Positions 4,198-21,295 of a stretch of 64,000 nt of DNA are shown piece by piece. The translations under genes were made by a program, and so were the position numbers. The notes below the pieces were generated by a model that saw only the letters and a list, made by a program, of their open reading frames with translations, ran no database searches and was not told the origin of the DNA. Position 1 is the stretch's first letter. The number at the start of each line of letters is the position of its first letter. Origin of the DNA: Tenacibaculum sp. 190524A02b (GTDB lineage: Bacteria > Bacteroidota > Bacteroidia > Flavobacteriales > Flavobacteriaceae); assembly GCF_964036645.1 (NCBI RefSeq), contig NZ_OZ038525.1, forward strand, positions 2,502,501 through 2,566,500, in the 5' to 3' direction.

Positions 4198-4349
4198 TGT
4201 CATTCTGAGCAGAGTTTACGGAGCGAAAGAATCTTTCTTTTATATAGCAGATTGCCACAAAAAATTCCATTAAATTCCATTTTTTTCGCAATGACATCCT
4301 TTATTTACAAAGGTTATCAAGATAAAGTTACATAGAAACTCACGTTAAT
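4198..4349. repeat. Dispersed palindromic element, partial copy A
   Basis: It starts GTCATTCTGAG and continues through GATTGCCACAAAAA to TTCGCAATGAC, then the right terminal repeat ACTCACGTTAAT. It matches the inner core and right end of the element at 5806-6013, but the left terminal repeat is missing. The right end touches the stop codon of the small gene ending at 4349. Confidence 0.65.
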
Positions 4350-4552: not shown

Positions 4553-5243
4553 TATCTAGCGCATTTTTTACCAACTCTAAACTCTTTTTATTGTAGTAGT
4601 TTTGTTTTTCTTCTTTTATTAAAGCTTGTTCTTTGGTATCTACTAAAATAAAATCAAACAAATTTCTAATGGTTAGCTGTAGTTTATGTACTTGTGTAAA
4701 CTTGTATTTAGCCATTAAATACACCGCACTGCATACTAATAAACCTGTTAATACTGCCATTATATAATAGCTTATTTTATTTACATCTTGAAAAGGTTGA
4801 AAAATCCAATACAAATAAAAACAGGCTATAATTATTAATGTGCCATGCAATACTATAATGCCCTTGTTTTGCTTTTCTTCTACATAACTTCTAAACAAAT
4901 TAAATAAAGCATAAATAAAAAGACCCAATACCCAACCTAATTCTCCTAAAAATTGTTGGAAGCTTCTAAAGCCCAAAAACTTTTCTTTTTTCCTTACCTC
5001 CAAATACTCTAGCCATGCTTCATTAGTGGCTTTTTTTTCTTTTAAATACAATTTATAAACCTCTGTATCTTTGGCAGCTTCTTTTACTTTGCTTAAAGCT
5101 AAAGTCCTTGCTTTTTTCCTCTCTAAATGATTTGCTTTTGCTTCTTGATAAGCTTTTGTTTTATCTGGAGCAAATTCAAATGCAAAAAAAGCGGTAGCGC
5201 AAACTACCGCAAGAATATAGGGTACAATCTGTTTACTCTTCAT
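4539..5243 (-). CDS. Membrane protein of unknown function, middle gene of a three-gene operon
   Basis: This 234-residue protein starts at ATG 5243 (MKSKQIVPYILAVV); a longer frame exists to 5330, but it would run through most of the upstream lipoprotein gene and code for low-quality sequence. One N-terminal hydrophobic segment (residues 5-22) is followed by a long charged helical stretch (about 25-90), then three more membrane segments (about 100-117, 128-145 and 155-180) and a basic/acidic C-terminal tail. It overlaps the upstream lipoprotein stop by 11 bases and the downstream gene by 14. No family is recognised. Confidence 0.7.
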   Translation of the reverse strand: MKSKQIVPYILAVVCATAFFAFEFAPDKTKAYQEAKANHLERKKARTLALSKVKEAAKDTEVYKLYLKEKKATNEAWLEYLEVRKKEKFLGFRSFQQFLGELGWVLGLFIYALFNLFRSYVEEKQNKGIIVLHGTLIIIACFYLYWIFQPFQDVNKISYYIMAVLTGLLVCSAVYLMAKYKFTQVHKLQLTIRNLFDFILVDTKEQALIKEEKQNYYNKKSLELVKNALDNEQG

Positions 5244-5412
5244 CATTACTTGGATCATCATAGTCATCTGATGAATTTGGGTTGATGCTGTTTTCTTTGT
5301 CGATGAGCTGTATTCTTTTTTGTTCTTCAAGGTCTTGTATGGTATTGTCTGTACAACTACCTAATACCATTATACTTACCAATGCACCTATAATAACTGC
5401 TACTTTTTTCAT
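5233..5412 (-). CDS. Small lipoprotein (59 aa), first gene of a three-gene operon
   Basis: ATG at 5412 gives MKKVAVIIGALVSIMVLGSC, a clear lipoprotein signal with Cys20. A short acidic, Asn/Ser-rich mature part follows (TDNTIQDLEEQ..., ending SSDDYDDPSNDEE). The overlap with the next ATG (GATGAAGAGTAA carries both the stop and the next start region) marks an operon. Its role is unknown; it may recruit or report envelope state to the membrane protein encoded next. Confidence 0.7.
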   Translation of the reverse strand: MKKVAVIIGALVSIMVLGSCTDNTIQDLEEQKRIQLIDKENSINPNSSDDYDDPSNDEE

Positions 5413-5624
5413 GTTTGCTTAGTTTAAAAATTAATAACTAAGTAAATATACAGTTAATTTACAGGGGCTTTTGTACTGGTTTATTTTGATTTTTAGTTAG
5501 TTGCTGTTTTTTAATAGCTTCAAACTTACAGGGTTTTTACTTGATTTACAATACTCAATAGCCCTGAAATTTTTCTAAGGGTTTTCCCTTAATTCATACT
5601 ATTAGTTGGTTTGAGGTAAGAGGT

Positions 5625-5800
5625 AAAAGGTAGAAGGTAGAAGGCAGAAGGCAGAAGGCAGAAGGCAGAAGGCAGAAGGCAGAAGGCAGAAGGCTAAAGC
5701 TAGTTTTTAATTTTTAGTGTTTAATTAATTCACTCATAACTCCATAACTCTGAACTCATAACTCATAACTCCATACCCCATCTCAATACTCAATACTCAG
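5625..5800. repeat. AGAAGGC/T heptamer array with conserved tail
   Basis: About nine copies of AGAAGG(T/C) (5629-5693) are followed by GCTAGTTTTTAATTTTTAGT and repeated CTCATAACT and CAATACT words. The tail is the same as at 3966-4180 although the heptamer differs. The CTCATAACT/CAATACT string resumes after the 208-bp element at 6013-6095. Confidence 0.7.
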
Positions 5801-5805
5801 TACTA

Positions 5806-6013
5806 ATTAACGTGAACTCGATATAACAGATAGTATATTTACCTGAATATCAACATAATTTGTCATTACGATTGGCGAAATGAAATGAAGCTAAGAAGTA
5901 ATCTTTCCCTATGCTAACTAAAGACTGCCACAAAAACTCCATTGCATTACGTTTTTTCGCAGTGACAACAGAGGTTTATTAAACTTATAACATAAAGTTA
6001 AACTCACGTTAAT
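5806..6013. mobile_element. 208-bp element with terminal inverted repeats (MITE-like), copy B
   Basis: The ends are ATTAACGTGA and TCACGTTAAT, with a second inner inverted pair GTCATTACG / CGCAGTGAC, so the whole element can fold. It carries no ORF. It lies between two arrays of the same CTCATAACT/CAATACT words, as if it had inserted into one array. Copy C (25945-26144) is nearly identical internally and copy A (4198-4349) is partial. A non-autonomous mobile element or a REP-like repeat is the best fit. Confidence 0.65.
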
Positions 6014-6108
6014 TTAATAAATTCACTCATAACTCTGAACTCATAACTCATCTCAATACTCAATACTCAATACTAACTACTCAGTACTAATTATTACGTT
6101 TTAAAACA

Positions 6109-6138
6109 AAAAACCACAACTTTTCAGTTGTAGTTTTT
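6109..6138 (-). terminator. Hairpin terminator (copy 2)
   Basis: These are the same 30 bases as at 2691-2720, placed 36 bases past the stop of the minus-strand gene at 6175. Confidence 0.65.
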
Positions 6139-6174
6139 ACTATGCTATACCTTCAATATCTTTAATTCATAGCC

Positions 6175-6960
6175 TTAGGCTAGTGTATCATCAACATCTG
6201 TAGACACTGTATCTGTAGGGACTTCCGTATTAGGTTCCTCAGTGTCTGGCGTTTCAGATGTTGTATTGTATCTGTTTTCAATAGTTTGTTCATAAGCCGC
6301 AGCTAAACTTTCTATTTTTTCTAACAATAGTGTGTAAGCTGCGGTATTGGTTAGTGTTTTATGCGCTTTTATATGATCTACTAAATTATAATAGGCATTT
6401 ACTGCCTCTTTACGTAATTCTGGGAAATTAGCTAATGGATTTTCTACAGATTCGTCTAAACGTTCTAAATACTTTGTATTAAACAAGGTATTACTTTCTT
6501 TTAACTCATTAAACCAATTAGTTAAATGTAAAGTAGTCACTGCTTCTGTTAGCACTGTTTCTTTTTCTATGTCTTTTACTATAGTATTAAGAATGGCTGT
6601 TTCTTCATTATATTCTCTGCGGGCAATATTTGGACCGTGCTTATCTATTACTGTTAGTAACTTGTTAGCTGCCAATGACTCTGCCTCTGTAAAATAATGT
6701 GTATACCCTGTAACTACTGTTTTTAAGCCTCTAATAGCTTTATCTCTTCTATCATCAATAGCTTCTATTTCCTTAGTTATTACACTGCCTCTTGTTTGCT
6801 TGTACACGGCTTGCAAAGCGCTTAATTTAACGTTAAGCTCAGTTAGCGAGTCGGTAAGCAATAAAGTACTCACGTCTTCTTTATTTACAATAGCTATTAC
6901 TTGATCTAGGTATTGTATAATTTCTAGGTGTTTAAACCTGTAAAAAAATGATGAAATCAT
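6175..6960 (-). CDS. DUF6261-like helical protein
   Basis: This 261-residue, predicted soluble and largely helical protein starts MISSFFYRFKHLEIIQYLDQV. The pattern of an N-terminal LTELN...LSALQAVYKQTRGSVITKEIEAIDDRRDKAI block and a central LTNWFNELKESN motif matches what I know of the Bacteroidota DUF6261 family. The C-terminus is an acidic Thr/Pro-rich tail (SETPDTEEPNTEVPTD) that is probably disordered. DUF6261 proteins are often found in mobile or polymorphic regions, but their function is not established. The gene stands alone, with a terminator after it and 586 bases of repeat-bearing DNA before it. Confidence 0.6.
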   Translation of the reverse strand: MISSFFYRFKHLEIIQYLDQVIAIVNKEDVSTLLLTDSLTELNVKLSALQAVYKQTRGSVITKEIEAIDDRRDKAIRGLKTVVTGYTHYFTEAESLAANKLLTVIDKHGPNIARREYNEETAILNTIVKDIEKETVLTEAVTTLHLTNWFNELKESNTLFNTKYLERLDESVENPLANFPELRKEAVNAYYNLVDHIKAHKTLTNTAAYTLLLEKIESLAAAYEQTIENRYNTTSETPDTEEPNTEVPTDTVSTDVDDTLA

Positions 6961-7177
6961 AGTATTTTTAAATTTGGATTTACAATTTTTATTGAAAGCA
7001 ATTTACTTGCATAGCTGTCTCAAATATAATGCATTCTGTTTATTAAATAAGTAAGCTGTTGTTTTTTAACATCATTTTAATACATTAACTTTATTCTACT
7101 CCAAAGTCTTTGTATTTGATTCAATATAAAATAGTAGAGATTTGAATATTTAGCTTTCCTCCTCCTATTAGTACAAT

Positions 7178-7345
7178 ACAATTTCCAGAAAAATAAATTG
7201 TTTCCCGCACTGGTGCAACACAGCTTCCAGAAAAATAAATTGCTTCCCGCACTAGTGCAGCACAACTTCCAGAAAAATAAATCTCTTCCCGCACTAGTGC
7301 AGCACAGCTTCCAGAAAAATAAATTGCTTCCTGCACTAGTGCAGG
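7178..7345. repeat. Four perfect-register 42-bp direct repeats upstream of the restriction island
   Basis: The units at 7178, 7220, 7262 and 7304 are each 42 bp with no spacer. The consensus begins ACAGCTTCCAGAAAAATAAA and ends with the palindromic CGCACTAGTGCA; the last copy has a full TGCACTAGTGCA. Copies differ at only a few positions. Forty-two base pairs is about four turns of B-DNA, which would place all four palindromes on one face. The array lies 202 bp before the WYL gene. Frames read through it are repeat artefacts. Confidence 0.9.
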
Positions 7346-7480
7346 AAAAAGAAAAAAACAATATAAAACACTAAAAAACAACAAACTACACCTAAAATCG
7401 CATTTAAATAGTTGTTTACGATTAAAAAAATAGGTTTTTAACTTCTAATTTTTTTCAAATTCGATTCACAACAAACATAA

Positions 7481-7501
7481 AATTATTATGCTGTAATAAT
7501 T
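7481..7501. promoter_or_regulatory. Inverted repeat at the WYL gene promoter
   Basis: AATTATTA-TGCTG-TAATAATT has perfect 8-bp arms and runs into TATCTTTA (7501-7508), a near match to the TAnnTTTG -7 element. It is well placed as an autoregulatory operator for the gene at 7547 (inference). Confidence 0.45.
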
Positions 7502-7546
7502 ATCTTTACATAACTCAAGTTGCATACTAAAAATTAACTCATATTT

Positions 7547-8545
7547 ATGGCCAATAGCAAACATGCTCATCTAAGGTATAATATACTAGATTATTGCTTT
7601 AGAAAAAAAGCACTGAATTTTAATCAATTATTAGTCTATGTGAATAATCAAATAGAAAAATATTATCCCGAAGAAAATATTTCAGAACGAACTTTAAGAG
7701 AAGATTTAAAATTATTTCGAGATCATAAACAAGGGTTTGGCGCTCCACTTCCTAATAAAGTGAGAGTTTTAAAATATGATACTCCAAATTTTTCCATTGC
7801 AACAAAACCATTATTGGAATATGAACAATATTTAATTGAAGCTGCTCAACAGTTACTACAAAGGTTCGAAAACCACCCTAAATATGAGAAGTTAGCAGAA
7901 GCTTTACTTACATTTCAAGAAGAAGAAGATCAAGACAATCAATTATCAAAAGTCTTGTTTTATGACTACAATAAAGAATATAAAGGAATTAAACACCTTA
8001 AACCTTTATACCTAGCCATAAAAAAGAAACAAGTTCTTCAAATTACGTTTTTAGGTTTTAATAACAGTGAATCTAAAATATTTGAGTTTCATCCTTATGT
8101 ATTAAAACAATATAATAGAAGGTGGTTTGTTTTTGGACTTAATAAAACAAAAAACATTGCACAATGGAGTATTCCTTTAGACGAAAGATTACTGAATTTT
8201 GAAGTACTAGAAGATGCTAATTTTATTGAAACAGCAACCAATTGGGAGTCTTTTTTCAGACCAATAATTGGTGTTGTTAAACCTGTTAATGCCACCATAG
8301 AAAAGATTATACTCCGCTTTTATAATGGTAGAGAACAATATTTTAAAACCAAACCCCTGCATCCTGATTACGAGGAGTTTTTTGAAGAAGATAAACAAAA
8401 CCAAATCTGGTTTGAGGCTATTATTAATAAAGAATTAGTACAACAATTGTTATCATATGGTCAAGATGTTGAAGTGATTGCTCCAGAGCGTTTAAAACTA
8501 AAAATGAAAGAACATGCAGAGAACATGCAAAACTATTACAGTTAA
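7547..8545 (+). CDS. WYL-domain transcriptional regulator of the restriction island
   Basis: In this 332-residue protein, the N-terminal 70 residues form a winged helix (ILDYCFRKKALNFNQLLVYV, then ISERTLREDLKLFRD). A WYL domain follows (about 150-215: YLAIKKKQVLQITFLGFN, FHPYVLKQYNRRWFVFGLN, WSIPLDERLLNFEVL), and then a C-terminal WCX-like extension (EKIILRF...FKTKPLHPDYEE). WYL proteins sense ligands, often nucleic acid pieces, and many control phage-defence loci such as BREX (BrxR) and CBASS. It is the first gene of the island and precedes the methylase-kinase gene by 53 bases. A perfect inverted repeat overlaps its own promoter, and the 42-bp array lies upstream. The start ATG 7547 gives the full HTH. 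Confidence 0.88.
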   Translation: MANSKHAHLRYNILDYCFRKKALNFNQLLVYVNNQIEKYYPEENISERTLREDLKLFRDHKQGFGAPLPNKVRVLKYDTPNFSIATKPLLEYEQYLIEAAQQLLQRFENHPKYEKLAEALLTFQEEEDQDNQLSKVLFYDYNKEYKGIKHLKPLYLAIKKKQVLQITFLGFNNSESKIFEFHPYVLKQYNRRWFVFGLNKTKNIAQWSIPLDERLLNFEVLEDANFIETATNWESFFRPIIGVVKPVNATIEKIILRFYNGREQYFKTKPLHPDYEEFFEEDKQNQIWFEAIINKELVQQLLSYGQDVEVIAPERLKLKMKEHAENMQNYYS

Positions 8546-8550
8546 AACTA

Positions 8551-8584
8551 TGCAATTACTCCGCATAAAAAAACACTTAATTTG
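8551..8584 (+). promoter_or_regulatory. Shared 17-bp motif plus -7 element before the methylase-kinase gene
   Basis: TGCAATTACTCCGCATA (8551-8567) is followed by TTAATTTG (8577-8584), a one-mismatch TAnnTTTG element. The identical 17-mer and a -7 element at the identical 26-base offset precede the DUF2130 gene (12276-12309). The motif covers the -33 region and has ATGC/GCAT ends, so a dimeric regulator is plausible. Confidence 0.6.
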
Positions 8585-8598
8585 TAGACAAGTATTTA

Positions 8599-11088
8599 AT
8601 GAAGCTTATGAGAGAAGATAATTATATAGTTGAGAAAATATCAGATCAGTTCTGGCAATCTGCCCATGTTTTGAAAACAATAGTATTAGATGCTAGCCTT
8701 GATCTTACACTTTTTTTTGTTTGTGTATATAAAGACGAAATTTTTACGGATCTGAATATGGCCTCTCGTCATGAGCAATTAAACGAGATAAAAAAAAATA
8801 TTCAAAATAACTCATTTTACAGCAGAATATATGAAGTTTATGCTCCTCTGATTGATAATATCCCTCCAAATCAATTAGATCAGTTATTTTATCATATTAC
8901 GAATATTAGCCACTATGATTTAAATTTATATTTTCATAAAGTCTTTGAAAAGATTCTTCAAAAAATTTTCTCCTATAAAGGAAAGTACTCAGGCGAATCC
9001 ATACAGCCAAAAGAAATAAGTCGTTTGATTATAAAATTAGCAAAATTACCTACTAACGCTAAGGTATACAATCCTTTTGCTGGTTTAGCATCTTTTGGTA
9101 TATTCTTAGAAGGCTTTCATGAATATTATGGTCAGGAAATAAACCAACAAACATGGGCAATTGGAAAAATGAGATTGAAAGCTCATAACAAAGACTTTAG
9201 CTATAGATATGAATTAAGTGATTCAATAGAAAAATGGGATGAATTTAAAAAATATGATCTTATTGTTGCCACCCCGCCTTTTGGTATGCGAATACCCAAA
9301 TACATAGATTCATATTTTTTTGGAAAATCATACGGAACGATTGAGAACTTTCTAATTGATAAAGGTCTTAATTCATTAAAAAATAATGGAAAGTTAATCA
9401 CTGTTTTTTCATTATCCTTTCTCTTCAAGGGTGGACAATCTACTAGAATAAAAAAATGGTTAATAGATAAGAACTTTATAGATACTATTATAACATTACC
9501 TTCGGGTCTGTTTTCAAATACCAATATTCCTGTATGTATTATCATTTTTAAAACTGTTTCTTCACGCCCAGGTTATGTAAAGCTATTGGATGCCTCAAAT
9601 TTTTATAGCAAAGATGGCCCAAGAAATAAGATTTTAAATAATCAACAAATTATAGATCTTTTAAATGATGATTTAGAAAATGACTATTTAAAATATATAA
9701 GTACGGAGCATTTTTATAAAAATGATTTCGACTTGTCTTTCGGTAGATACTTTTTAAAAGATATAAATGGTACGCCTTTAAAGGAATTTGCTGAGATTAT
9801 AAATGGATCTAAAGCTCCTCAAGGTAAAAAAATGCGTCAAGTGCAAATTAAAAACTTAAAAGACGAAGTTTTCGACAGTAAATTAAATAGTACTGAAATC
9901 AATTTAAGTGTTATAAATAGAGGTACATTTAAAATAATTGAAAAATCTTGTATCTTAATCGCTACCAAATGGAACTCACTCAAACCTACCTATTTTGAAT
10001 ATACTGGGGAACCAATTGCAATATCTAGATCTATTGTAGCTCTTCGACTAAATGAAGATATCGTTGACCCTACATTTTTCATCAATGAATTATCAGCTGA
10101 TTATATAAAAAAACAATTGAAAGCTTACAGAGTTGGCTCCGTTCAACCAATACTTCGTAGTAAAGATTTAATTAACATTATTTTTCAATTGCCTACTATG
10201 CAAGAGCAGAAGGCAAAAGTTAGTGCAATTATTGAGCTATCCGACAGACTTAAAAAAATAGAAGCTGAAAAAGAAAACATTGTAAGAGGTATTCAAAAAG
10301 AAGAAACTGAAAGCTCAACTTCTTTAAGCCATATATTAGGGAAGCCACTATTAAGTATTGGTTCCTCTATAGAAATAATTCAAAATGCTTTAACCAAAGT
10401 AGACCCTAACTGGAAAAATATTGTAATTAGTGAACGAAGACAGTTTAAGATGTCTGATGCGTTTGATTCTATTTCAAAAAATTTAAAATACATTCAGGAA
10501 TTAGCAGATGTCAACACAGCATTAGTGAGTGTATCTGCATTTAATTTAACTGAAATTCATTTCCTAAAGTTTTTGTCAGAATTTGTAAAAACCGAAAAAA
10601 AGAGTTTAAATGGCAATATTGATCTTAAACTAGATATACATGATGATATTAAGGAACAAATGAATAATCAAATATTGATTAAAGGGAATGAACAAAAGCT
10701 AAAAATTGTTTTAACCAATCTTATAGATAATGCTAAAAATCATGCTTTTATTAATAAAGACCAGGAGCATAAAATAAATATAGAAATCCTTCCATTTACT
10801 GGTAATGAAAAAGAGGCTGATCAATTCAATTATGATATAGATGGAAGAAAATCTTACGTAGAAGTTAAGGTCTCTAATACAGGAAAACCATTTCCCAAAG
10901 ACCTAAAATTAGAGGATTATATTAGAAAAAGTTTTGCCGTGGGGGCAACCAAAAACAAAGGTCTTGGAGGATATGAGGTGAATGAAATACTTAAAGTACA
11001 TAATGACAGAAAACAAGCTTTAAATATTATCTCAAATCAAGAATTAGAATATTGTACAACAATATCATTTTTATTACCAATTATTTAA
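8599..11088 (+). CDS. N6-methylase-like / HsdS-like / histidine-kinase fusion protein
   Basis: This protein has 829 residues. Residues 110-390 are a type I N6-adenine methylase-like domain: SAM motif NPFAGLASF (158-166) and motif IV TPPF at 225-228, where N, D or S is expected in place of T, so activity is doubtful. Residues 390-545 are one HsdS-like specificity half (LKEFAEIINGSK, then ILRSKDL...LPTMQEQKAKV) with a coiled coil. Residues 570-829 are a histidine-kinase module: H-box HILGKPLLSI (His578), N-box LTNLIDNAKNHA, G1 SNTGKPFP and G2 KNKGLGGYEV. Its receiver partner begins 2 bases after the stop. The likely role is to recognise DNA or its methylation and signal by phosphotransfer. The start 8599 is chosen because the shared promoter motif lies just before it. 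Confidence 0.85.
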   Translation: MKLMREDNYIVEKISDQFWQSAHVLKTIVLDASLDLTLFFVCVYKDEIFTDLNMASRHEQLNEIKKNIQNNSFYSRIYEVYAPLIDNIPPNQLDQLFYHITNISHYDLNLYFHKVFEKILQKIFSYKGKYSGESIQPKEISRLIIKLAKLPTNAKVYNPFAGLASFGIFLEGFHEYYGQEINQQTWAIGKMRLKAHNKDFSYRYELSDSIEKWDEFKKYDLIVATPPFGMRIPKYIDSYFFGKSYGTIENFLIDKGLNSLKNNGKLITVFSLSFLFKGGQSTRIKKWLIDKNFIDTIITLPSGLFSNTNIPVCIIIFKTVSSRPGYVKLLDASNFYSKDGPRNKILNNQQIIDLLNDDLENDYLKYISTEHFYKNDFDLSFGRYFLKDINGTPLKEFAEIINGSKAPQGKKMRQVQIKNLKDEVFDSKLNSTEINLSVINRGTFKIIEKSCILIATKWNSLKPTYFEYTGEPIAISRSIVALRLNEDIVDPTFFINELSADYIKKQLKAYRVGSVQPILRSKDLINIIFQLPTMQEQKAKVSAIIELSDRLKKIEAEKENIVRGIQKEETESSTSLSHILGKPLLSIGSSIEIIQNALTKVDPNWKNIVISERRQFKMSDAFDSISKNLKYIQELADVNTALVSVSAFNLTEIHFLKFLSEFVKTEKKSLNGNIDLKLDIHDDIKEQMNNQILIKGNEQKLKIVLTNLIDNAKNHAFINKDQEHKINIEILPFTGNEKEADQFNYDIDGRKSYVEVKVSNTGKPFPKDLKLEDYIRKSFAVGATKNKGLGGYEVNEILKVHNDRKQALNIISNQELEYCTTISFLLPII

Positions 11089-11090
11089 TT

Positions 11091-12272
11091 ATGAATAAAA
11101 CCTATAACATACTTTGGATAGATGATGAACACAATCACGAAGAAATGGATACATTTATTATCCAAACTGAACAACAAGATATTTTATTACATGGATATGG
11201 ATCTTTTGTAGAGGGTTTTGAAGCTTTAGAAGCTGATTTAAATTTCTATGATGCAATTGTGCTAGATGCTCTCTTTTTTGAAGAGAAAGATTCAGAAACA
11301 GTCAGCCCAATGGCATTGGGTTCAGCTATTAAAAGAATTTATGAACTCAGAACAAAAAAAACATTTCCATATTTTATTCTTTCTGGTCAATCGAATTTTA
11401 CTGAAGTTTCGAATCCTATTATTGAAGCTTTTAAATTAAGATGTTACAATAAAAAGAATTCAGAGGATGTAAAAGAATTACTTATCAACATCAAAAAAGA
11501 AGCTGATGCTCAAGTAGATCTTCAAATAAAACATGAAAACCAACAATTATTCGACATTCTAAAAAACTATCCGGATTCTGCTAGAGATACATTTATCTCA
11601 ATCTTTAAAGGCTTAAAAGGTATTAACAATCAGTTTGATGATCAATTATACTTTACTCAACTAAGAATTATATTAGAGACTATGTTTAGAATGGCTAATG
11701 CATATGGTTTATTACACGATAAATGTGTTCAAGTAAATGGTAACAAAGTTAATTTATCTGAATCTAGTTTATTTCTTTCAGGTTATGATACTAAGCACCT
11801 AAAAGTTAGTTGTTCAGTAACCCACTTTCCAAAAATAATAGCGGATAATGTAAAAAACATTATTGATATTACTGGAGCTGCTTCGCATACTACTGTCGTA
11901 GATGTAACTAAAAACATACATATTCAAGCATATCGTAATGCTATAAAAACCCCTTATTTATTATATTCATTGGCACTTCAACTAATGGATACATTAATTT
12001 GGTTTGATGACTATATTAAAGTAAATAGTGACATAGCAACCAATAAATCACATTGGCAAGATATCATGTACAATGCAAATGGAAATAAATATGAAATAGG
12101 AAAATTACAAAATATTGCTAGAAACGGATGGGGTACTATTTTAATAAATGGAGGTTTAGAAAGTATTAGCGTATTTAAAGATGATATAACAAGACTCAGT
12201 CTAAAGGTTGGAGATCAGATTAAGTTTACAATTAAAGCCTCTTCTATTGCGAAAGACATAACTAAAGCTTAA
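11091..12272 (+). CDS. Receiver-domain protein paired with the methylase-kinase
   Basis: This 393-residue protein starts at ATG 11091, two bases after the stop of the kinase gene; the upstream extension in frame lies inside that gene and is rejected. Residues 4-130 form a receiver domain: ILWIDDE gives acidic Asp11/Asp12, YDAIVLDALFF gives the phosphoacceptor Asp59, ILSGQS gives Ser98, and YNKKN gives the conserved Lys (121). All four positions needed for phosphorylation are present. The remaining 250 residues form a mostly helical domain with no recognised family (LFDILKNYPDSARDTFISIF, LRIILETMFRMANAYGLL, a segment around ITGAASHTTVVD). No DNA-binding motif is visible, so the output may be protein contact, for instance with the restriction complex (inference). 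Confidence 0.85.
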   Translation: MNKTYNILWIDDEHNHEEMDTFIIQTEQQDILLHGYGSFVEGFEALEADLNFYDAIVLDALFFEEKDSETVSPMALGSAIKRIYELRTKKTFPYFILSGQSNFTEVSNPIIEAFKLRCYNKKNSEDVKELLINIKKEADAQVDLQIKHENQQLFDILKNYPDSARDTFISIFKGLKGINNQFDDQLYFTQLRIILETMFRMANAYGLLHDKCVQVNGNKVNLSESSLFLSGYDTKHLKVSCSVTHFPKIIADNVKNIIDITGAASHTTVVDVTKNIHIQAYRNAIKTPYLLYSLALQLMDTLIWFDDYIKVNSDIATNKSHWQDIMYNANGNKYEIGKLQNIARNGWGTILINGGLESISVFKDDITRLSLKVGDQIKFTIKASSIAKDITKA

Positions 12273-12275
12273 CCC

Positions 12276-12309
12276 TGCAATTACTCCGCATAGTTTATTT
12301 GTAGTTTTG
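12276..12309 (+). promoter_or_regulatory. Shared 17-bp motif plus -7 element before the DUF2130-hsdMS operon
   Basis: TGCAATTACTCCGCATA (12276-12292) and TAGTTTTG (12302-12309), a perfect TAnnTTTG, lie 26 bases apart start to start, as at 8551-8584. The motif begins 4 bases after the receiver gene. Confidence 0.65.
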
Positions 12310-12335: not shown

Positions 12336-13676
12336 ATGAAAGATAACCACATTCAGTGTCCTAACTGCCAGGAAGTTTTTAAAGTAGATGAATCTGTGTA
12401 CACAGATATTGTAAAACAAGTAAGAGATCAACAGTTTAAAGAAGAAGTAGCTAACAGACTACTAGCGGCTGAAAATGAAAAAAAAGCAGCTGTAGAACTA
12501 GCAGAAACCAAAGTAAAAAATGCTTTTGACAAGCAATTAACCCAGAAGGAAAACGAACTCAATGCACTAAAATTTCAAAGTAAGGCAGCACTAACGGAAC
12601 AGTTGGCGCAAAAACAGAAAGAAATTGAGTTACTAAAAGAAAAAAGTAAAACAGCATTACTTGAAGAAACTTCTAAAAAAGATGCTACTATTAAAGATTT
12701 GGAAGCTAAATTACAACAAGCCGCATCGGATAAAGAATTAGCATTACAAAAAGCGGTAATCCATATTGAAAAAAAAAGAGACCAGTTAGAAAATGATATC
12801 AAACTTAAAGAAGCAGAAAAAATAAATCTTGAAAAATCATTAAGAGAAGAGTTCCGATTAGAAAAAGATCATATTGCAAAAGAACTTCAATTAAAAGATG
12901 ATGAAATTCATCGTTTAAAAGATTTTAAACAAAAGCTTTCTACCAAAATGTTAGGAGAAACCCTAGAACAGCATTGTGAAATAGCGTTTAATAAATTAAG
13001 AGCCACTGCTTTTCAAAACGCTTATTTTGAAAAAGACAACGATGCTTCTTCTGGTACCAAAGGAGATTATATTTTTAAAGAAGCCGATGCTAACGGAAAT
13101 GAGGTTGTTTCTATAATGTTTGAAATGAAAAATGAAAACGAAACAACAGCTACCAAAAAGAAAAACGAAGACTTTTTAGCCAAATTAGATAAAGATAGAA
13201 AAACAAAAGGTTGTGAATACGCTGTTTTGGTTTCTTTATTAGAGGCAGATAATGAGTATTACAATACAGGTATTGTTGATGTTTCACACAAATACGAAAA
13301 AATGTATGTGATACGTCCGCAATTTTTTATCCAAATAATTACCTTGTTAAGAAACTCTGGTAGTAAAGCCTTGCAATATAAAGCAGAATTAAACGCTGTT
13401 AGAAATCAAAATATTGACATCACTAATTTTGAAGAAAAAATGAACGCTTTTAAAACTGGCTTTGCTAGAAATTATGAGTTAGCAAAAAAACAGTTTGGAA
13501 CCGCTATTCAAGAAATAGATAAAAGTATTTTGCATTTAAATAAAATAAAAGAAGCGCTTACAAAATCAGAAAACAATCTTAGATTAGCCAATAATAAAGC
13601 AGAGGATTTAAGTATTAAAAAACTTACCCGTGGCAACCCAACCATGAAAAGTAAGTTTGAAAACTTAAGCAATTAA
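12336..13676 (+). CDS. DUF2130 family protein: zinc-ribbon, coiled coil and PD-(D/E)XK-like domain
   Basis: In this 446-residue protein, CPNC at residues 8-11 is half of a possible zinc ribbon. Residues 25-205 are a long coiled coil (heptads such as [13 protein letters not shown] and [13 protein letters not shown]). The C-terminal domain shows a nuclease-like signature: Asp244 (KGDYIF) and Glu263-x-Lys265 (MFEMKNE), matching the D...ExK pattern of the PD-(D/E)XK fold to which DUF2130 is assigned as far as I know. The family is often met beside type I restriction genes, but its job is not established. It leads the operon with hsdM (16-base gap) and shares its promoter motif with the kinase pair. 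Unmodified-DNA binding or cleavage is an inference. Confidence 0.8.
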
Positions 13677-13692: not shown

Positions 13693-15363
13693 ATGATTAC
13701 AGGAGAATTAAAGAGTAAAATTGATAAAATTTGGGGTGATTTCAGGAGTGGAGGAATTTCCACCCCAATCACTGTTATTGAGCAATTTACCTACCTTATA
13801 TTTTTACGACAGTTAAACGAAAAGCAAACGCAAAAAGAAAAGGAAGCAAATTTGTTAGGTATTGCAATAGAAAATGAGATTTACCCAGAAAAATACAAGA
13901 AATTTCGCTGGAGTTATTTTAAGCAACTCACCCCAGAAGAGAGATTTATCTTATTTACACGCCCACAAAAGGAGATGGACAATTTAACGGCTTTTGATTT
14001 TATGAAAAACATAGGTAAACAAGGAGGGGTGTTTGCCCAGCACATGAAAGGAGCCATGTTTATGATACAAACCCCAGGCTTGTTGGATAAGGTGGTACAG
14101 CAAATTGATGCGCTTAATATTAATGATAAGGATTTACTGGGCGATTTATACGAATACATGCTCTCAAAAATTGCAGAAGCAGGCACCAATGGGCAATTCC
14201 GTACGCCTCGCCATATTATTCGTATGATGGTAGAAATAATGCAACCCAAAAAAGAAGATACCATTTGCGATCCGTCAAGCGGAACGGCAGGTTTTTTGGT
14301 AGCGGCAGGGCAATATATTTACGAAAAACATAACGATTGGTTTTTAGACGAAACCTTTAGAAACCACTTTCATAACCAAATGTTTAACGGTATTGAATTT
14401 GATCCTAACATGCTTCGTATTGGCGCTATGAACATGCAATCACATGGCTTGGAAAACCCAACACTTATTGGTAAAGATGCCTTGAGTACTAAGTTAACCA
14501 CCGAATACCAATACAACGATAAGCTTTCACAAGAAGAAAATGAAAAAAAGGAAAAAGAATTTCAGAAAGAAATTCTTGAAGAAGCCTACTCGCTTATTTT
14601 AGCCAATCCGCCGTTTAAAGGAAGTTTAGACTATGAGGAGGTAGAAAGTAGCTTATTAAAAGTTACCAAAACCAAAAAAACCGAATTGTTGTTTTTAGCC
14701 CTTATGCTACGCTTGCTAAAAACAGGAGGACGCGCCGCAGTTATTGTACCCGATGGCGTATTGTTTGGAAGCTCAAATGCACATAAAAGCATACGTAAAC
14801 AGCTTGTTGAAAACCAACAACTACACGCTGTAATTTCCATGCCTAGTGGTGTATTTAAACCTTATGCAGTAGTAAGTACAGCTATTTTAATATTTACCAA
14901 AACCAACTCTGGTGGTACCGATAAAGTTTGGTTTTACGACATGAAAGCCGATGGTTTAAGTTTAGATGATAAACGTAACTTATTAGTAACCGAGGCAGCT
15001 TTTGAACAGTGTTTTACAGAACCTGAAAATATAGTAACAGAGGTAAAAGAGAAATGTGATATCCCACAAATATTATTAGATGCTCAAAAACTCCTAAATG
15101 TCAGTTCGGATAATACGTCATTGCGAGAAGGTACGACGAAGCAATCTCTTGAAGAGAAGTACGCAGACCGCACCCAACAAAGCTTCCTAGTACCCAAACA
15201 AGAAATTATTGACAAAAATTGGGATTTATCCATTAACCGCTACAAAGAAATTGTATACAAAGAAATTGAGTACGAAGCCCCAAGTGCATTATTACAGCAA
15301 ATAAAAGACTTAGATGCCCAACGTACGCAAGCCATGTTGAACCTTGAAAAGATGATAGGTTAA
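13693..15363 (+). CDS. hsdM: Type I restriction-modification N6-adenine methyltransferase subunit
   Basis: In this 556-residue protein, the helical N-terminal HsdM domain (DFRSGGISTPITVIEQFTYLIFLRQL) is followed by the methylase core: QFRTPRHIIRMMV, SAM-binding DPSSGTAGFL (from Asp193) and catalytic NPPF (305-308). It methylates adenine in the site chosen by HsdS and forms the M2S core of the enzyme. hsdS follows one base after the stop, so the two are translationally coupled. Unusually, residues 475-485 (TSLREGTTKQS) are encoded by DNA matching a dispersed noncoding repeat (GTCATTGCGAG...GAAGCAATCT), which appears to have entered a linker before the C-terminal helices without breaking the frame. 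All catalytic motifs are intact. Confidence 0.96.
   Translation: MITGELKSKIDKIWGDFRSGGISTPITVIEQFTYLIFLRQLNEKQTQKEKEANLLGIAIENEIYPEKYKKFRWSYFKQLTPEERFILFTRPQKEMDNLTAFDFMKNIGKQGGVFAQHMKGAMFMIQTPGLLDKVVQQIDALNINDKDLLGDLYEYMLSKIAEAGTNGQFRTPRHIIRMMVEIMQPKKEDTICDPSSGTAGFLVAAGQYIYEKHNDWFLDETFRNHFHNQMFNGIEFDPNMLRIGAMNMQSHGLENPTLIGKDALSTKLTTEYQYNDKLSQEENEKKEKEFQKEILEEAYSLILANPPFKGSLDYEEVESSLLKVTKTKKTELLFLALMLRLLKTGGRAAVIVPDGVLFGSSNAHKSIRKQLVENQQLHAVISMPSGVFKPYAVVSTAILIFTKTNSGGTDKVWFYDMKADGLSLDDKRNLLVTEAAFEQCFTEPENIVTEVKEKCDIPQILLDAQKLLNVSSDNTSLREGTTKQSLEEKYADRTQQSFLVPKQEIIDKNWDLSINRYKEIVYKEIEYEAPSALLQQIKDLDAQRTQAMLNLEKMIG
15117..15150. repeat. Dispersed-repeat fragment inside hsdM
   Basis: GTCATTGCGAGAAGGTACGA followed by CGAAGCAATCT resembles the left core of the intergenic elements at 4198 and 5860 (GTCATTACGA...GAAGTAATCTTT) and the well-known Bacteroidota GTCATTGCGAGG...GAAGCAATCT repeats. 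It is in frame within the hsdM coding sequence. Confidence 0.6.
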
Positions 15364-15364
15364 T

Positions 15365-16564
15365 ATGGAATTAGTAAGTATAAAATCCATAATTGAAAAG
15401 CCTATTACAGGGGAATGGGGAACAGAAGGGAATGGAGTTAATGTAATTAGAACTACAAATTTCACTAATGAAGGAAAACTAAATTTAGAAAATGTTGTTA
15501 AAAGGATTGTTGATGAAAAAAAAGTAAAGGCTAAAAAATTAGTATTTGGAGATGTTATTATTGAGAAATCAGGAGGAAGTCCTAAGCAACCAGTTGGACG
15601 AGTTGTGTTTTTTGATCAGAAAACAGAATTATACTTATGTAATAATTTCACCTCTATCTTACGTCCTAAAAAAGATAAAGTCTATCCAAAATATCTTTTA
15701 TTTATTTTATTCATAAACCATCAAAAAGGAGTTACAAGCAGATATCAAAATAAGACAACAGGAATTATAAATCTTAAATTACAAAATTATATCTCGGAAC
15801 TCAAAATCCCCCTACCATCATTACCCGAACAAAAACGTATAGCCGCTATATTAGACGAAGCAGACAAGCTACGCCAACTAAATACGCAATTGATCAAAAA
15901 ATACGATGCCCTAATGCAAAGTTTATTTTTAGATATGTTTGGGGATGTAGGAATGAGTAAAACGAAAGAAAATTTTATTCAACTTAAAGAGTTAATTACC
16001 CAAAAACCTGATAATGGTTTTTTTGCAAAAAAAGACTTATACAATTCTTTAGGCACCCCTGTTGTTTGGTTAAATAATTTTATCGATAAAATATATATAG
16101 ACCAAATGAATTTAAGAAGAGCTCAGGTGTCAAGAAAAGATGACAAATATGCTTTAGAATATGGAGATGCTTTGTTTTGTCGTTCATCTTTAACCGTTGA
16201 AGGAATTGGTAAGTGTGCAATTGTTCCTGAGAGTTTGAAAGAAAAAACATTATTTGAATGTCATATTATTAGATTGAAATTTAATTTAGATAAGATTGTA
16301 CCTGAATATTTTAGATTTTTATCCAATACTAATTATTTCAGATCTAATATTAAGAAAAGAGCTAAAACTTCAACAATGACAACAATATCACAGGATGGTA
16401 TTACAGATATAAAAATACCAGTACCTCCTATTCAATTACAAATTCAATTTAGAGAAAGTTTAAGAATTATTCAAGAACAAAAACAACAAGCCCAAGCAGC
16501 CTTGCAAAAAAGTGAAGACTTGTTTAACAGTTTGTTACAAAAAGCCTTTAAAGGGCAGTTATAA
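15365..16564 (+). CDS. hsdS: Type I restriction-modification specificity subunit
   Basis: In this 399-residue protein, the first target-recognition domain (1-150) ends in the conserved block LPSLPEQKRIAAILDEADKL, the central helical spacer that sets the distance between half-sites. A second recognition domain (about 205-365) ends in IPVPPIQLQIQF and a C-terminal helix (LFNSLLQKAFKGQL). The two-TRD layout is the standard one, so the enzyme should recognise a bipartite asymmetric site. The ATG lies one base after the hsdM stop. The recognition sequence cannot be told from the protein by eye. No extra hsdS copies or inverted repeats for phase variation are present within the window. Confidence 0.95.
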   Translation: MELVSIKSIIEKPITGEWGTEGNGVNVIRTTNFTNEGKLNLENVVKRIVDEKKVKAKKLVFGDVIIEKSGGSPKQPVGRVVFFDQKTELYLCNNFTSILRPKKDKVYPKYLLFILFINHQKGVTSRYQNKTTGIINLKLQNYISELKIPLPSLPEQKRIAAILDEADKLRQLNTQLIKKYDALMQSLFLDMFGDVGMSKTKENFIQLKELITQKPDNGFFAKKDLYNSLGTPVVWLNNFIDKIYIDQMNLRRAQVSRKDDKYALEYGDALFCRSSLTVEGIGKCAIVPESLKEKTLFECHIIRLKFNLDKIVPEYFRFLSNTNYFRSNIKKRAKTSTMTTISQDGITDIKIPVPPIQLQIQFRESLRIIQEQKQQAQAALQKSEDLFNSLLQKAFKGQL

Positions 16565-16593: not shown

Positions 16594-17550
16594 ATGACCA
16601 TAAAAGAAGCTATATTAAAAGTATTAGAAGACAATAAAGGCGCTTTTACCTATTTAGAAGTCCTTAAAAAAATAGACGAACAACAGTATATTGATTGGAG
16701 CAATGCCAAAACACCTTCTGACACCATAGGTGCACAATTAGGACATTTTATCCGACAGAATGATACACGCGTTAAGCGCGTAAAAGGAAAAAAAGGATTT
16801 GAATACTACTTTACTGCTTATGAGAACGAGCTTAATTTGTCAGAAATAGTAGAAAAAGAAGCAAGCTCAAAAAAAGCAGTAGCCAAAAAATACCAAGAAC
16901 GTGATTTGCATAAATTATTGAGTTCCTATTTAAAAAGTCAAAATATTTATGCCAAAACCATTCTTCATGAAAAATCAGCAAATAGCAAAGACGATCATCA
17001 GAAATGGATTCACCCAGATATGTTGGGCATCCGTTTTTTGCATTTAAAAAATGCTGCAAGTAATGCCTTGCTAAAGGAAATTAATAAATCGGATGCCTTT
17101 ACGTTAATTTCTTATGAACTAAAACGAGAAATCAAATCAGATCACGAATTAAAAAAGTGTTTTTTTCAAGCAGTATCCAATTCTAGCTGGGCAAATTTTG
17201 GGTATTTGGTAGCTTTTGATATTAGTAAAAATTTACTGGACGAAATGGAGCGCTTACATCAATCATTTGGAATAGGTATTATTGAGTTAAAGGCAAACCC
17301 TTACGAGAGTGATGTACTTTTTCCTGCAAAATTTAAAGAATTAGATTTTAAAACCATTGATAAGCTTTGTGAGATAAACCCAGCGTTTAAAACCTTTATT
17401 GAACAAGCTAAAAGTATGCTTACAGCACCCGAAGAGTATATAAAACCTACCAGAGCAGCTTTTGAAAATTTTTGTGATGCCTATTTTAAAACAGATTCAG
17501 AAATAGATACGTATTGCAAGGAAAAAAACATACCCATAGAACAAGAGTAG
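16594..17550 (+). CDS. HARE-HTH protein with a nuclease-like C-terminal domain (COG2958/HrgA-like)
   Basis: This protein has 318 residues. Residues 1-75 match the HARE-HTH winged helix (AILKVLEDNKGAFTYLEVLK, then GAQLGHFIRQNDTRVKRVKG), a module known from restriction-associated and chromatin proteins. The C-terminal part has HPDMLG (Asp142) and SYELKRE (Glu175-x-Lys177), consistent with a PD-(D/E)XK-type fold. The arrangement resembles HrgA-type proteins found in restriction loci of Helicobacter and others. It sits between hsdS (29-base gap) and hsdR (301-base gap), so it is probably co-transcribed with hsdMS. Its function is unknown; an accessory nuclease or a DNA-binding control factor are the main options. 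Confidence 0.75.
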   Translation: MTIKEAILKVLEDNKGAFTYLEVLKKIDEQQYIDWSNAKTPSDTIGAQLGHFIRQNDTRVKRVKGKKGFEYYFTAYENELNLSEIVEKEASSKKAVAKKYQERDLHKLLSSYLKSQNIYAKTILHEKSANSKDDHQKWIHPDMLGIRFLHLKNAASNALLKEINKSDAFTLISYELKREIKSDHELKKCFFQAVSNSSWANFGYLVAFDISKNLLDEMERLHQSFGIGIIELKANPYESDVLFPAKFKELDFKTIDKLCEINPAFKTFIEQAKSMLTAPEEYIKPTRAAFENFCDAYFKTDSEIDTYCKEKNIPIEQE

Positions 17551-17851: not shown

Positions 17852-20800
17852 ATGACGAACTTTAACTTTTTACAAAACGAATTTCCTGAAATTTATCAAG
17901 AAGCTATAAAAGCGGAAGAATATACCTTTAAAGAACCTAAATTTGGAGCGTTGCAATGTCGTACGGTATTAGAGCTTGGCGTAAAATGGATGTATCATAA
18001 TGATACCGAATTTACCTTGCCTCATGATACAAGTTTAAACAGTTTGTTACACCATACTAGTTTTCGACATTCGGTTCGTCCTTCTATGTTTAAAGAACTC
18101 AATTTGGTTAGAAAAATAGGAAACAATGCAGCACATGGAAAAAAAGTAAGTACCTCACAATCATTGGCAGCTTTAAAAGGAGTCTTTAGTTTTTGTGTAT
18201 ATCTTAGCAAATACTACAGTGAAACCAACCCCACCATTGACGCTTTTGAAGAAGCAATTATCCCGATACCCACATCAGAAAAAGAAAAAATTTCAACAAA
18301 GGAGTTTCAACAAAAAATAGCAACCGCTGAAGCTCTTATAAAAAAGTATGAAGCTGCACACAAAAAGCAGCAGGAGCTTATAGCAAAAAACGAATTATTG
18401 CAACTGCAAAAAGAACGTTTGCAAAATGAGTTACAGTTAAGAAAAGAAGCACGAAAAACTACGATAAATGAAGATATTGAAATACCTCAACTATTACCAG
18501 AAGCTGAAACACGCAAATTGTATATTGATGTATTATTGGAAGAAGCTGGTTGGCAAAACTTACAAAAAGGAAGAGATACTGAGTACTCAGTACTAGGAAT
18601 GCCCCTAAGTACCAACCCCTCAGGAAAAGGAAATGCTGATTATGTACTTTGGGGTGATAACGGATTGCCTTTAGCTGTAATTGAAGCGAAAAGTACCTTG
18701 AAAAGTGCTGATAAAGGAAAGCATCAGGCGTATTTATATGCCAATTGTTTGGAAAAAATGCATGGGCAACGCCCCGTAATATTTTATACCAATGGTTATC
18801 AAACCTATCTTTGGGATGATACTTTTTATAGCAGCGAAAGAGAAGTGGACGGTTTTTATACCAAAGACGAATTAGAATACCTCATTTTTCAGCGAGCCAA
18901 TAGGGAAGACATTAGAAATTTTAAGGTAAATACTGATATTGCAGGAAGAGCCTATCAGTTAGAAGCCATACAACGTGTAGCGGAAACCTTGGCAATTACC
19001 TCTACAGAAGGAAAGCTTAGAGGTAATGGAAGAGAAGCGTTATTGGTAATGGCAACAGGAAGTGGAAAAACACGAACTGCTTGTGCTATTGTAGATATGC
19101 TAATGAAAACCAAATGGGCAAAACGTGTATTGTTTTTAGCCGATAGAAATGCTTTGGTAACACAGGCTAAAAATGCCTTTAAAGAGCATTTGCCAAGTTT
19201 TAGCGGTATTGATTTAACAAAAGAAAAAGAAGACGATAAAACACGTTTGGTATTCTCAACCTACCCGACCATTATGAATAAAATAGACGCTTTAAAAAAT
19301 GAAGAAGGGCGTTTTTATGGTGTAGGGCATTTTGATGTGATTATTATTGACGAAGCCCACCGTTCGGTATATCAAAAATACCAAGCCATATTTGAGTATT
19401 TTGATGCCATTTTAATAGGGCTTACCGCTACTCCTAAAAAAGAATTAGATCATGATACCTATGGTTTGTTTAATATAGAGGATGATACCCCCACTTTTGC
19501 GTATGAGTTAAATGATGCCGTGGCTCAAGGTTTTTTAAACCCACCAAAATCATATAAAGTACCTGTAAAGTTTATAAGAGAGGGTATTAAATACAGTGAA
19601 CTTTCGGAAAAAGATAAAACAAAGTTCGAAGAAAAATTTGGAATCCAGTCTGATTCCGAAACTGATATTACCATTGATAAAAGTGTGATAAACAAAATAT
19701 TTTTTAATTCAAAAACAGTTGATTTGGTTTTGGATTATTTAATGACACACGGACTAAAAGTAAATGGAGGCGATACCTTAGGGAAGTCTATTATTTTTGC
19801 AAAAAATCATAAACATGCAGTGTTTATTGAAAAACGATTTTATAAAAATTATCCGCAATACAGCGGTGATTTTTTAAGGGTAATTGATAATTATAATGAT
19901 AAAGCACAAGATTTATTAGAAAAATTTTGTGATGACAAAGAAGATTTACTGCCTCAAATAGCTGTTTCTGTTGATATGATGGACACTGGCGTAGATGCTC
20001 CAAAAGTGGTAAATTTAGTATTCTTTAAAGAGGTAAAATCATACGCAAAGTTCTGGCAAATGGTAGGTAGAGGTACCCGATTAAGACCTAATTTGTTTGG
20101 TCCCAATAAAGACAAAGAGTTCTTTTTAATCTTTGACCTTTGCAAAAACCTTGAATTTTTTGAAGCAAACCCTGAAGGGTATCAAAGTAAGCTTCAAAAA
20201 TCGGTAACTACCCAAGTTTTTGAGGCTAAATTAAATGTGATTACTGCAATTAGAAATCATCATGAAGCCACAAAAGAAGAGGATGCTTTGGCATTACAAT
20301 ATACAAATGAACTTTATACAACCATCACAAACTTAAACCCTGAAAGATTTGAAGTAAGAAAAGTACAAGAGTTTGTTGATAAATATCAAAAAAGAGAGTG
20401 CTGGGAGCATTTATCAGTAGGAGTGGTCTCTGAAATTATAACGCATTTAGCAGCCCTAACCAAGAGTAATGATACCAATGAAGTTGAACTGCGTTTTGAG
20501 TTATTAATGCTTCGTTTTCAATTGGCTTTATTGCAGCAATCAAAAGCCCAAGAAACCTATGTTGGTAAAATAATGGATATAGGAAACCAATTGTACCGAA
20601 AAAGAAATATTCCAATGGTAGCAGCGAAAATAGAAACGATTGAGAATATTATTGACATGGAATATTGGCAAACTGTGGGAGTATCAACATTAGAAAGTAT
20701 AAAAAATGAACTTAAATCACTTATTAAGTTTTTAGACAAAAACCATACAGAGGTGGTTTATACAGACTTTGAAGATGTATTAGATCATTCGAAAGTAGAG

Positions 20801-21295
20801 GAAGTTGATATTTTGGAAATACATAAAAATCTGCAACCTTATAAAGATAGAATTACAGCATTTATCAGGAAAAACAAATCACATTTAGTAATTGATAAAT
20901 TGTATAAAAATATTCCAATAACAGAAGCCGAATTAGACTTATTGGAATCTTTTCTTTATGAGGAAACGCATAGTACAAAAGAAGAATATGCAAAAGAGTT
21001 TGGAGCGGTTTCTTTAGGTAAATTTATACGCGGTATTGTTGGTTTAGATGCTACGGTAACCAATGGGATATTTGCTCAATTTATTCAAGAAAATAACTTA
21101 AATAGTACCCAAATTACTTTCGTAAATATTTTAATTGACTTTTTAACAAATAATGGAATTATTGACAAAAGGTTATTGAAAAAACCTCCCTTTAATAAAA
21201 CTCATGAAAATGGAATTTTTGGTGTTTTTAAAGAAGATAAAAAAATACGAAAAATCATTTCTTTAATTGATGAAGTAAATGATAATGCAGGATAA
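17852..21295 (+). CDS. hsdR: Type I restriction endonuclease subunit R (DUF4145 N-terminus)
   Basis: This protein has 1147 residues. Residues 1-115 look like DUF4145 (LQCRTVLELGVKWMYHN, IGNNAAHGK). A coiled coil follows (150-205), then the HSDR nuclease domain with Asp263 (NADYVLWG) and Glu278-x-Lys280 (VIEAKST). Next are the two helicase lobes: Walker A ATGSGKT (about 401-407), DEAH at 500-503, GLTATPKK, and motif VI GRGTRLR (about 739). The C-terminal helical domain binds the M2S core. It translocates DNA with ATP and cuts far from the unmethylated site. All core motifs are present and the length is normal for the DUF4145-containing subfamily. It is preceded by a 301-base gap. Confidence 0.95.
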   Translation: MTNFNFLQNEFPEIYQEAIKAEEYTFKEPKFGALQCRTVLELGVKWMYHNDTEFTLPHDTSLNSLLHHTSFRHSVRPSMFKELNLVRKIGNNAAHGKKVSTSQSLAALKGVFSFCVYLSKYYSETNPTIDAFEEAIIPIPTSEKEKISTKEFQQKIATAEALIKKYEAAHKKQQELIAKNELLQLQKERLQNELQLRKEARKTTINEDIEIPQLLPEAETRKLYIDVLLEEAGWQNLQKGRDTEYSVLGMPLSTNPSGKGNADYVLWGDNGLPLAVIEAKSTLKSADKGKHQAYLYANCLEKMHGQRPVIFYTNGYQTYLWDDTFYSSEREVDGFYTKDELEYLIFQRANREDIRNFKVNTDIAGRAYQLEAIQRVAETLAITSTEGKLRGNGREALLVMATGSGKTRTACAIVDMLMKTKWAKRVLFLADRNALVTQAKNAFKEHLPSFSGIDLTKEKEDDKTRLVFSTYPTIMNKIDALKNEEGRFYGVGHFDVIIIDEAHRSVYQKYQAIFEYFDAILIGLTATPKKELDHDTYGLFNIEDDTPTFAYELNDAVAQGFLNPPKSYKVPVKFIREGIKYSELSEKDKTKFEEKFGIQSDSETDITIDKSVINKIFFNSKTVDLVLDYLMTHGLKVNGGDTLGKSIIFAKNHKHAVFIEKRFYKNYPQYSGDFLRVIDNYNDKAQDLLEKFCDDKEDLLPQIAVSVDMMDTGVDAPKVVNLVFFKEVKSYAKFWQMVGRGTRLRPNLFGPNKDKEFFLIFDLCKNLEFFEANPEGYQSKLQKSVTTQVFEAKLNVITAIRNHHEATKEEDALALQYTNELYTTITNLNPERFEVRKVQEFVDKYQKRECWEHLSVGVVSEIITHLAALTKSNDTNEVELRFELLMLRFQLALLQQSKAQETYVGKIMDIGNQLYRKRNIPMVAAKIETIENIIDMEYWQTVGVSTLESIKNELKSLIKFLDKNHTEVVYTDFEDVLDHSKVEEVDILEIHKNLQPYKDRITAFIRKNKSHLVIDKLYKNIPITEAELDLLESFLYEETHSTKEEYAKEFGAVSLGKFIRGIVGLDATVTNGIFAQFIQENNLNSTQITFVNILIDFLTNNGIIDKRLLKKPPFNKTHENGIFGVFKEDKKIRKIISLIDEVNDNAG

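Follow-up and report, generated by a model that had tools for sequence, protein, structure and literature searches.

What role could a protein have that joins parts of a type I methyltransferase to a histidine kinase and is encoded next to a restriction system? The question is raised by Tenacibaculum sp. 190524A02b, in a 64,000-nucleotide stretch of contig NZ_OZ038525.1 (positions 2,502,501 to 2,566,500; hereafter the window, whose coordinates are used unless another locus is named). Here the fusion gene FUS (8599..11088, plus strand, 829 aa; likely true start 8608 rather than 8599) encodes an HsdM-like methylase domain, an HsdS half and a histidine-kinase module, and the gene for a receiver protein, REC (11091..12272, plus strand, 393 aa), starts 2 bases after it. 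On balance, we favour the reading that the two proteins work in the cytoplasm as a two-component switch associated with defence operons, in which the methylase part of FUS looks like a sensor.

The domain make-up that a preliminary description had read from FUS was recovered by Pfam and PDB profile matches. The N6_Mtase domain (8932..9753, plus strand, aa 112-385; Pfam) carries NPFAGLASF as motif I and TPPF as motif IV, and is followed by a single HsdS target-recognition half (9775..10275, plus strand, aa 393-559), assigned by Pfam and by the secondary structure of the model. The kinase module has a dimerisation helix (DHp) with the presumed phospho-accepting His578 (codon 10330..10332, plus strand; aligned on the histidine of HK853/CovS) and a HATPase_c (CA) domain with N, G1 and G2 boxes (10684..11079, plus strand, aa 696-827; Pfam and PDB profile match); HATPase_c was matched in 38 of 51 FUS proteins (E ≤ 0.01). 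REC comprises a receiver domain (residues 1-140), a family-specific helical domain (about 140-330) and a C-terminus (about 330-393) resembling OB/cold-shock domains, the last read from weak S1CSD-TOTE-2/CSD matches that stay below the Pfam cut-offs and occur in few relatives only. The matches listed in a fold search with REC concerned the receiver part, which has the fold, acidic pair, Asp, Thr/Ser and Lys of a response regulator; the presumed phospho-acceptor is Asp59 (codon 11265..11267, plus strand). A HEPN/DUF4145 identity of the helical domain, raised by a likeness to the HsdR N-terminus seen by eye, was rejected when profile comparison gave 0.5% probability, which did not exceed that of unrelated controls.

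Conservation and genomic setting of the pair

The FUS-REC pair is a conserved family. Protein database searches at E ≤ 0.001 returned 306 matches for REC and 436 for FUS, and homologue statistics were drawn from the best 120 of each. The REC profile located 25 loci in species genomes, with matches in 18 of 395 Bacteroidota genomes and 26 of 397 genomes of the window's family (its own included); the weakest of these matches resemble PorX or other receivers. Among the matches listed, all named cellular hosts of the pair were Bacteroidota or Balneolaceae, and the pair was also present on one unverified phage record and on one viral contig with open reading frame (ORF) sizes identical to those of locus L008. 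After removal of duplicates and weak matches, 43 loci remained, the window included. Left out of the counts were L044 (ORF sizes as L008), L047, L048 and L085 (duplicates of L005, L014 and L021), the weak REC matches L058, L059 and L091-L093 (E > 1e-10) and the short-flank loci L026-L043 and L060-L083. The three loci L091, L092 and L093 hold a separate recurring cassette of 252-332 aa, 452-454 aa (two of three), about 780 aa, 363-369 aa (the weak receiver match), about 265 aa and about 630 aa (HsdM-like in two of three).

FUS lies immediately 5′ of REC in 42 of the 43 loci, which bears out the dedicated receiver partner first proposed. The 42 include L025, where the FUS gene is broken into several ORFs beside the REC gene (7749-10903 of that locus), a decayed copy or an assembly fault. 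The next gene upstream of the pair encodes a WYL protein in 30 of the 43 loci (25 on the same strand, 5 divergent). Within eight genes downstream on the same strand we found HsdM in 32 loci, HsdS in 32, DUF2130 in 6 and HsdR in at least 18, the last a lower bound because the HsdR profile is narrow and some flanks end early. On the Myroides plasmid pFM-G13, predicted to be mobilizable, the order is WYL-FUS-REC-HsdM-HsdS, two genes (one PLD-like) and HsdR.

The suggested link to type I restriction-modification (R-M) was supported, with HsdM downstream in 32/43 loci; the pair does not always travel with hsdMSR. At L018 the order is WYL-FUS-REC-DruH-DruE (Druantia III) and HsdM was not seen in the 21 kb fetched, so the pair is not a dedicated part of hsdMSR. 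DruE also stands directly before FUS, or one gene off, at L001 and L021; the Druantia labels of the L018 (1966-aa) and L021 (1969-aa) ORFs rest on a BLAST cluster with the scanned L001 protein. Other genes at pair loci are of GmrSD type (L003, L024, L050, L053), PLD (L015), AAA_5 (L057) and OLD/AriA-like (L052). The single locus without FUS, L056 (G066, 104-11687), is a type III-A CRISPR operon of Cas10, Csm3, Csm4, Csm5, a 763-aa kinase, REC, Csx1 and Cas6. This kinase matched the kinase profile at 8e-14, gave no methylase match and has an N-terminal sensor that differs from FUS; no second copy of the sensor was found in 164 genomes of its order, where similarity was just to the C-terminal kinase part. 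A pair with an alternative sensor inside a CRISPR operon suggests a general module.

Proposed sensor and relay, and competing explanations

The residues of phosphotransfer appear to be what selection keeps in the pair. Of the FUS proteins from the loci, 41/41 retain the His of the kinase, the Asn of the N box and the residues of G1 (N-x-G) and G2 (G-x-G), while D12, D59 and K121 of REC are retained in 42/42, with S or T at position 98, in agreement with the kinase and receiver features originally noted. Across 25 kinase regions, 19 of which share 16-29% identity with that of the window, the His and CA residues are invariant. Methylase motif IV, by comparison, has the form NPP[FYW] in 16/41 FUS proteins and is lost in 25/41, versus 30/30 adjoining HsdMs that keep it. 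The TPPF of the window departs from the [N/D]PP[FYW] of active N6 methyltransferases, and its near clade (52 of the best 120 FUS homologues, ≥45% identity) has TPPF in 39, SPPF in 9, SPPM in 1, NPPF in 2 and a gap in 1, so that the methylase reaction looks dispensable in this clade. Since kinase and receiver residues are invariant and NPP[FYW] is often lost, the methylase part of FUS looks like a sensor.

To see which parts evolve together, pairwise identities were correlated over 30 loci with FUS, REC, HsdM and HsdS (500 permutations; 23 loci for WYL comparisons). REC correlated with the FUS kinase (0.44) and the FUS methylase (0.64), values reached in 0/500 permutations each. Correlations with HsdM were 0.004 for the FUS kinase (234/500), 0.14 for the FUS methylase (73/500) and 0.16 for REC (43/500), and that of the FUS kinase with HsdS was 0.12 (33/500). 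The pair is thus correlated internally and hardly with HsdM, which indicates that FUS-REC is a module recombined with different restriction systems. Median identity was 0.31 for the FUS target-recognition domain (TRD) and 0.32 for its methylase part, and 0.17, near alignment noise, for the HsdS TRDs of those loci. The HsdS of its own neighbour was no closer to the FUS TRD than other HsdS proteins were (mean rank 16.7 of 30; chance 15.5), and we reject on this ground that FUS reads the same site as the adjacent HsdS; together with the loss of motif IV in 25/41, it also leaves unsupported the simple form of the earlier proposal, that methylation of the adjacent system's sites is sensed. We infer that FUS may instead recognise something more constant than its neighbour's target.

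In the mechanism that we favour, FUS would be a histidine kinase that senses through a type I methylase fold (M plus half S), with methylation no longer needed in the window's clade. The putative ligand that engages its DNA-binding clamp might be invading DNA or else a phage product able to mimic or disable clamps of this sort. Engagement would shift the HsdS helix and, through a poorly modelled linker, the kinase dimerisation helix; His578 would be autophosphorylated and pass the phosphate to Asp59 of REC, whose conserved helical domain would carry the output to the adjoining defence system. Control would have a further layer, in which a WYL repressor of the BrxR/CapW type acts through a TGTGCA-N7-TGCACA operator to time transcription of the pair and the restriction genes. 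If true, re-use of a restriction methylase as a kinase sensor would link recognition of DNA or of phage counter-defence directly to phosphorelay control of restriction. More tentatively, a type I methyltransferase may have become a decoy sensor with a mock M-S clamp, so that whatever binds or disables such clamps (invading DNA, a phage anti-restriction protein) triggers the His-Asp relay; the relay would then be a portable alarm with swappable sensors for Bacteroidota defence islands, wired to type I R-M, Druantia, BREX, Qat, CBASS and type III CRISPR largely via one WYL operator.

Several observations weigh against the favoured mechanism. Profile scans of the window protein left REC without a recognised output domain, and the FUS model has a predicted local distance difference test score (pLDDT) below 50 at residues 557-577, the junction of the HsdS helix and the histidine. 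The G1 Asp is replaced by Asn throughout the FUS set (41 loci), and an acid (E/D) follows the kinase His in just 8/41 proteins and is absent in 33/41, which makes kinase activity uncertain. In addition, the far set of FUS homologues (68 of the best 120) has NPP in 54, so that some members may methylate.

These points bear on three other explanations. One, to which we give a fairly low probability, is that REC is itself the effector, in the style of kinase-triggered abortive infection, with Asp59 phosphorylation activating a helical-domain enzyme that harms cell or phage. The invariant residues fall mostly within 140-330, and many are polar, as would suit a catalytic site (T189, R192, E196, R200, N203, H209, H245, K248, H266, D300 and N318 in a 51-row alignment), and Pfam scans of the window protein and its relatives recognised no DNA-binding domain in REC. 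Against this, the window REC matched no toxin or enzyme family in Pfam, PADLOC, NCBIfam or PHROGs, and with HsdM-type genes downstream in 32/43 loci another effector is often present. Somewhat less probable is a pair without phosphotransfer, in which the kinase module would serve as a nucleotide-gated ATPase with REC as its fixed binding partner; the non-canonical H-box and the Asn at G1 would fit, but the His and CA residues are invariant even between regions as distant as 16-29% identity, and the phosphorylation residues of REC are invariant as well. Least probable of the three is an active methyltransferase that senses methylation of its own sites, its kinase firing on unmethylated ones, a role that the NPP-bearing far set might allow but that TPPF, SPPF or SPPM in 49/52 of the window's clade, NPP[FYW] in 16/41 loci and a TRD not matched to the adjacent HsdS all oppose.

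Promoter-operator and putative WYL regulator

From the gaps flanking FUS-REC, a consensus promoter-operator, TGTGCA-N7-TGCACA-N13-TTTG, was resolved across loci. Its TTTG fits the Bacteroidota -7 box, which we take to be TAnnTTTG. The window holds two copies on the plus strand: TATGCA-N7-CGCATA-N13-TTTG between the WYL stop and the FUS start (8549..8584; 3/16 mismatches), and CCTGCA-N7-CGCATA-N13-TTTG before DUF2130-hsdMSR (12274..12309; 4/16 mismatches). The 17 bases common to both gaps occur twice in the 5.04 Mb genome with ≤2 mismatches allowed. In a fixed-geometry scan, which replaced an earlier free-spacer scan, the operator stood ≤130 nt upstream of FUS in 33/41 loci (≤3/16 mismatches; L025, with its broken gene, and L010, at a contig end, left out), versus 0/2050 letter shuffles. 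In 7 loci there is another copy after REC (≤4 mismatches), and these include 6/6 with DUF2130; because these six hold two diverged copies of fixed spacing, a two-promoter reading superseded the idea that the 17-bp direct repeat is an insertion scar.

As the consensus was drawn from the pair loci themselves, a strict scan of the 395 Bacteroidota genomes is the more independent test. Among the matches listed, it gave 13 in 11 genomes versus 3 of the reversed pattern. Four stand before FUS (G202, G142, G163, G089). One lies 26 nt before the cyclase ORF of a cyclic oligonucleotide-based antiphage signalling system (CBASS; cyclase and TRIP13) in G142 (L157 13250-13285). Genome G033 has one 258 nt before QatA (QatA, QatC; L153 12321-12356) and one at the start of an ORF behind WYL in a bacteriophage exclusion (BREX) locus with an RmuC-type DRT protein, BrxA, BrxB, BrxC and PglX (L154 7837-7872). 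The operator before BREX, Qat and CBASS genes suggests a shared Bacteroidota defence regulon; if so, sequence alone could reveal which defence systems of a Bacteroidota genome are switched on jointly, one of the questions that defence islands pose. The remaining six matches are unexplained, one near an island in G053 and five without a shown defence link (G394, G007, G190, G070, G251), three of them inside ORFs. The window's genome has no strict match, its own copies being 3 and 4 mismatches off, and a loose form (≤3 mismatches) matched it 31 times versus 53 for the reversed control; we therefore claim no further sites there.

The WYL protein probably binds this operator. Thirty WYL loci were fetched, 29 with a recognised WYL ORF, and the operator lay directly downstream of WYL in 7/29 (1/1450 shuffles at ≤3 mismatches). 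FUS came next in 4 of these and was not present in the flank of the other 3, which points to the WYL protein as binder. Three of the seven were already in the set, L161 (L014's contig), L171 (the window) and L173 (the BREX locus); new were L163 and L164, where FUS follows, and L168 and L170, whose flanks have no FUS. Counting against this assignment, the operator is absent after 22/29 WYL genes of the wider family and is present without a nearby WYL gene at L001, L008, L009, L021 and L051, and WYL does not track the pair (WYL-REC 0.09, 120/500; WYL-kinase 0.09, 60/500). We considered REC as the binder instead, in keeping with the WYL-less loci that have the operator. This seems less probable, since G033 does not belong to the 18 genomes with a REC match and yet has the operator before its BREX and Qat genes, and since the operator also stands after WYL genes whose flanks have no FUS.

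The window's WYL+WCX protein (7547..8545, plus strand, 332 aa) is a putative BrxR/CapW-like operon repressor with the WYL and WCX matches of that architecture (Pfam WCX 2e-8, WYL 4.9e-5) beside defence genes; Pfam gave no match for its winged helix-turn-helix. Upstream of its gene lies a tandem array (7183-7344; 42-bp unit, 3.9 copies) containing CACTAGTG.

Related systems and neighbouring genes

Histidine kinase and receiver proteins act in phage defence in Detocs, where a PNP effector is carried on a receiver; a Pfam scan of the window REC found no PNP domain. In our view the pair belongs with the two-component regulators linked to defence, which are a known kind, but its sensor is of a new type. 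As claimed at the outset, no description of the FUS-REC pair was found in our searches of the PMC open set, none of which looked for the operator sequence. The WYL gene (7547-8545), the operator shared between loci and three published precedents, Response_reg_2/HEF_HK, BrxR/CapW and CapK/CapS, lay outside the preliminary description.

According to the available part of PMC8011034 (Bellieny-Rabelo 2021), Response_reg_2/HEF_HK pairs likewise have adjacent genes for a soluble kinase and a receiver, enriched beside R-M, but their sensor is mostly a GHKL ATPase (HATPase_c_3, paraMORC), and C5 methylases and type II R-M dominate. The PF19192 receiver and HATPase_c_3 sensor of that group were not recognised in our pair: the Pfam families listed for 51 REC proteins (25 of 26, E ≤ 0.1) did not include PF19192, which also had no match in the window's genome, HATPase_c_3 was matched in none of 51 FUS proteins (E ≤ 0.01), and ORFs of three PF19192 loci had no match below E 0.01 to the pair's kinase and receiver profiles. 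BrxR and CapW, in the accessible sections of PMC9122601 and PMC9122588, resemble the WYL+WCX protein in standing beside varied defence systems with a palindromic promoter operator of similar length (BrxR binds inverted repeats, PMC9122601; CapW sites are 19-24 bp, PMC9122588); here, by contrast, the WYL gene heads an operon with a two-component pair, and the operator keeps a fixed distance from a Bacteroidota-type promoter box. CapK/CapS, in the text available from PMC13373217, likewise consists of a kinase and its substrate encoded upstream of varied immune operons, but CapK is like anti-sigma-factor kinases and its target is a serine in the STAS-wHTH repressor CapS, with no His-Asp pair and no methylase sensor. 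The first 560 residues of FUS share M-part fold and domain order with the type I subunits HsdM and HsdS, from which FUS differs in its one TRD, its terminal kinase and a catalytic motif often lost. The available portions of other papers describe fusions of Schlafen proteins with a minimal histidine kinase in BREX (PMC12839542) and Cam2, a receiver-domain effector in type III CRISPR without a kinase (PMC11229360); those of PMC12255303, PMC7641849, PMC7159879 and PMC10952713 contain no methylase-HsdS-kinase fusion.

Downstream of the pair, the window carries on the plus strand genes for a DUF2130 protein (12336..13676; Pfam 2.3e-86), HsdM with an intact NPPF (13693..15363), HsdS (15365..16564), a HARE-HTH protein between hsdS and hsdR (16594..17550; Pfam 4.1e-10) and HsdR (17852..21295). 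Domain and defence profile scans identified the three Hsd proteins, which lie within a single gene run next to the pair, as in a type I R-M system. Further upstream, on the minus strand, are two adjacent and similar lipoprotein-like genes (821-1567 and 1811-2566).

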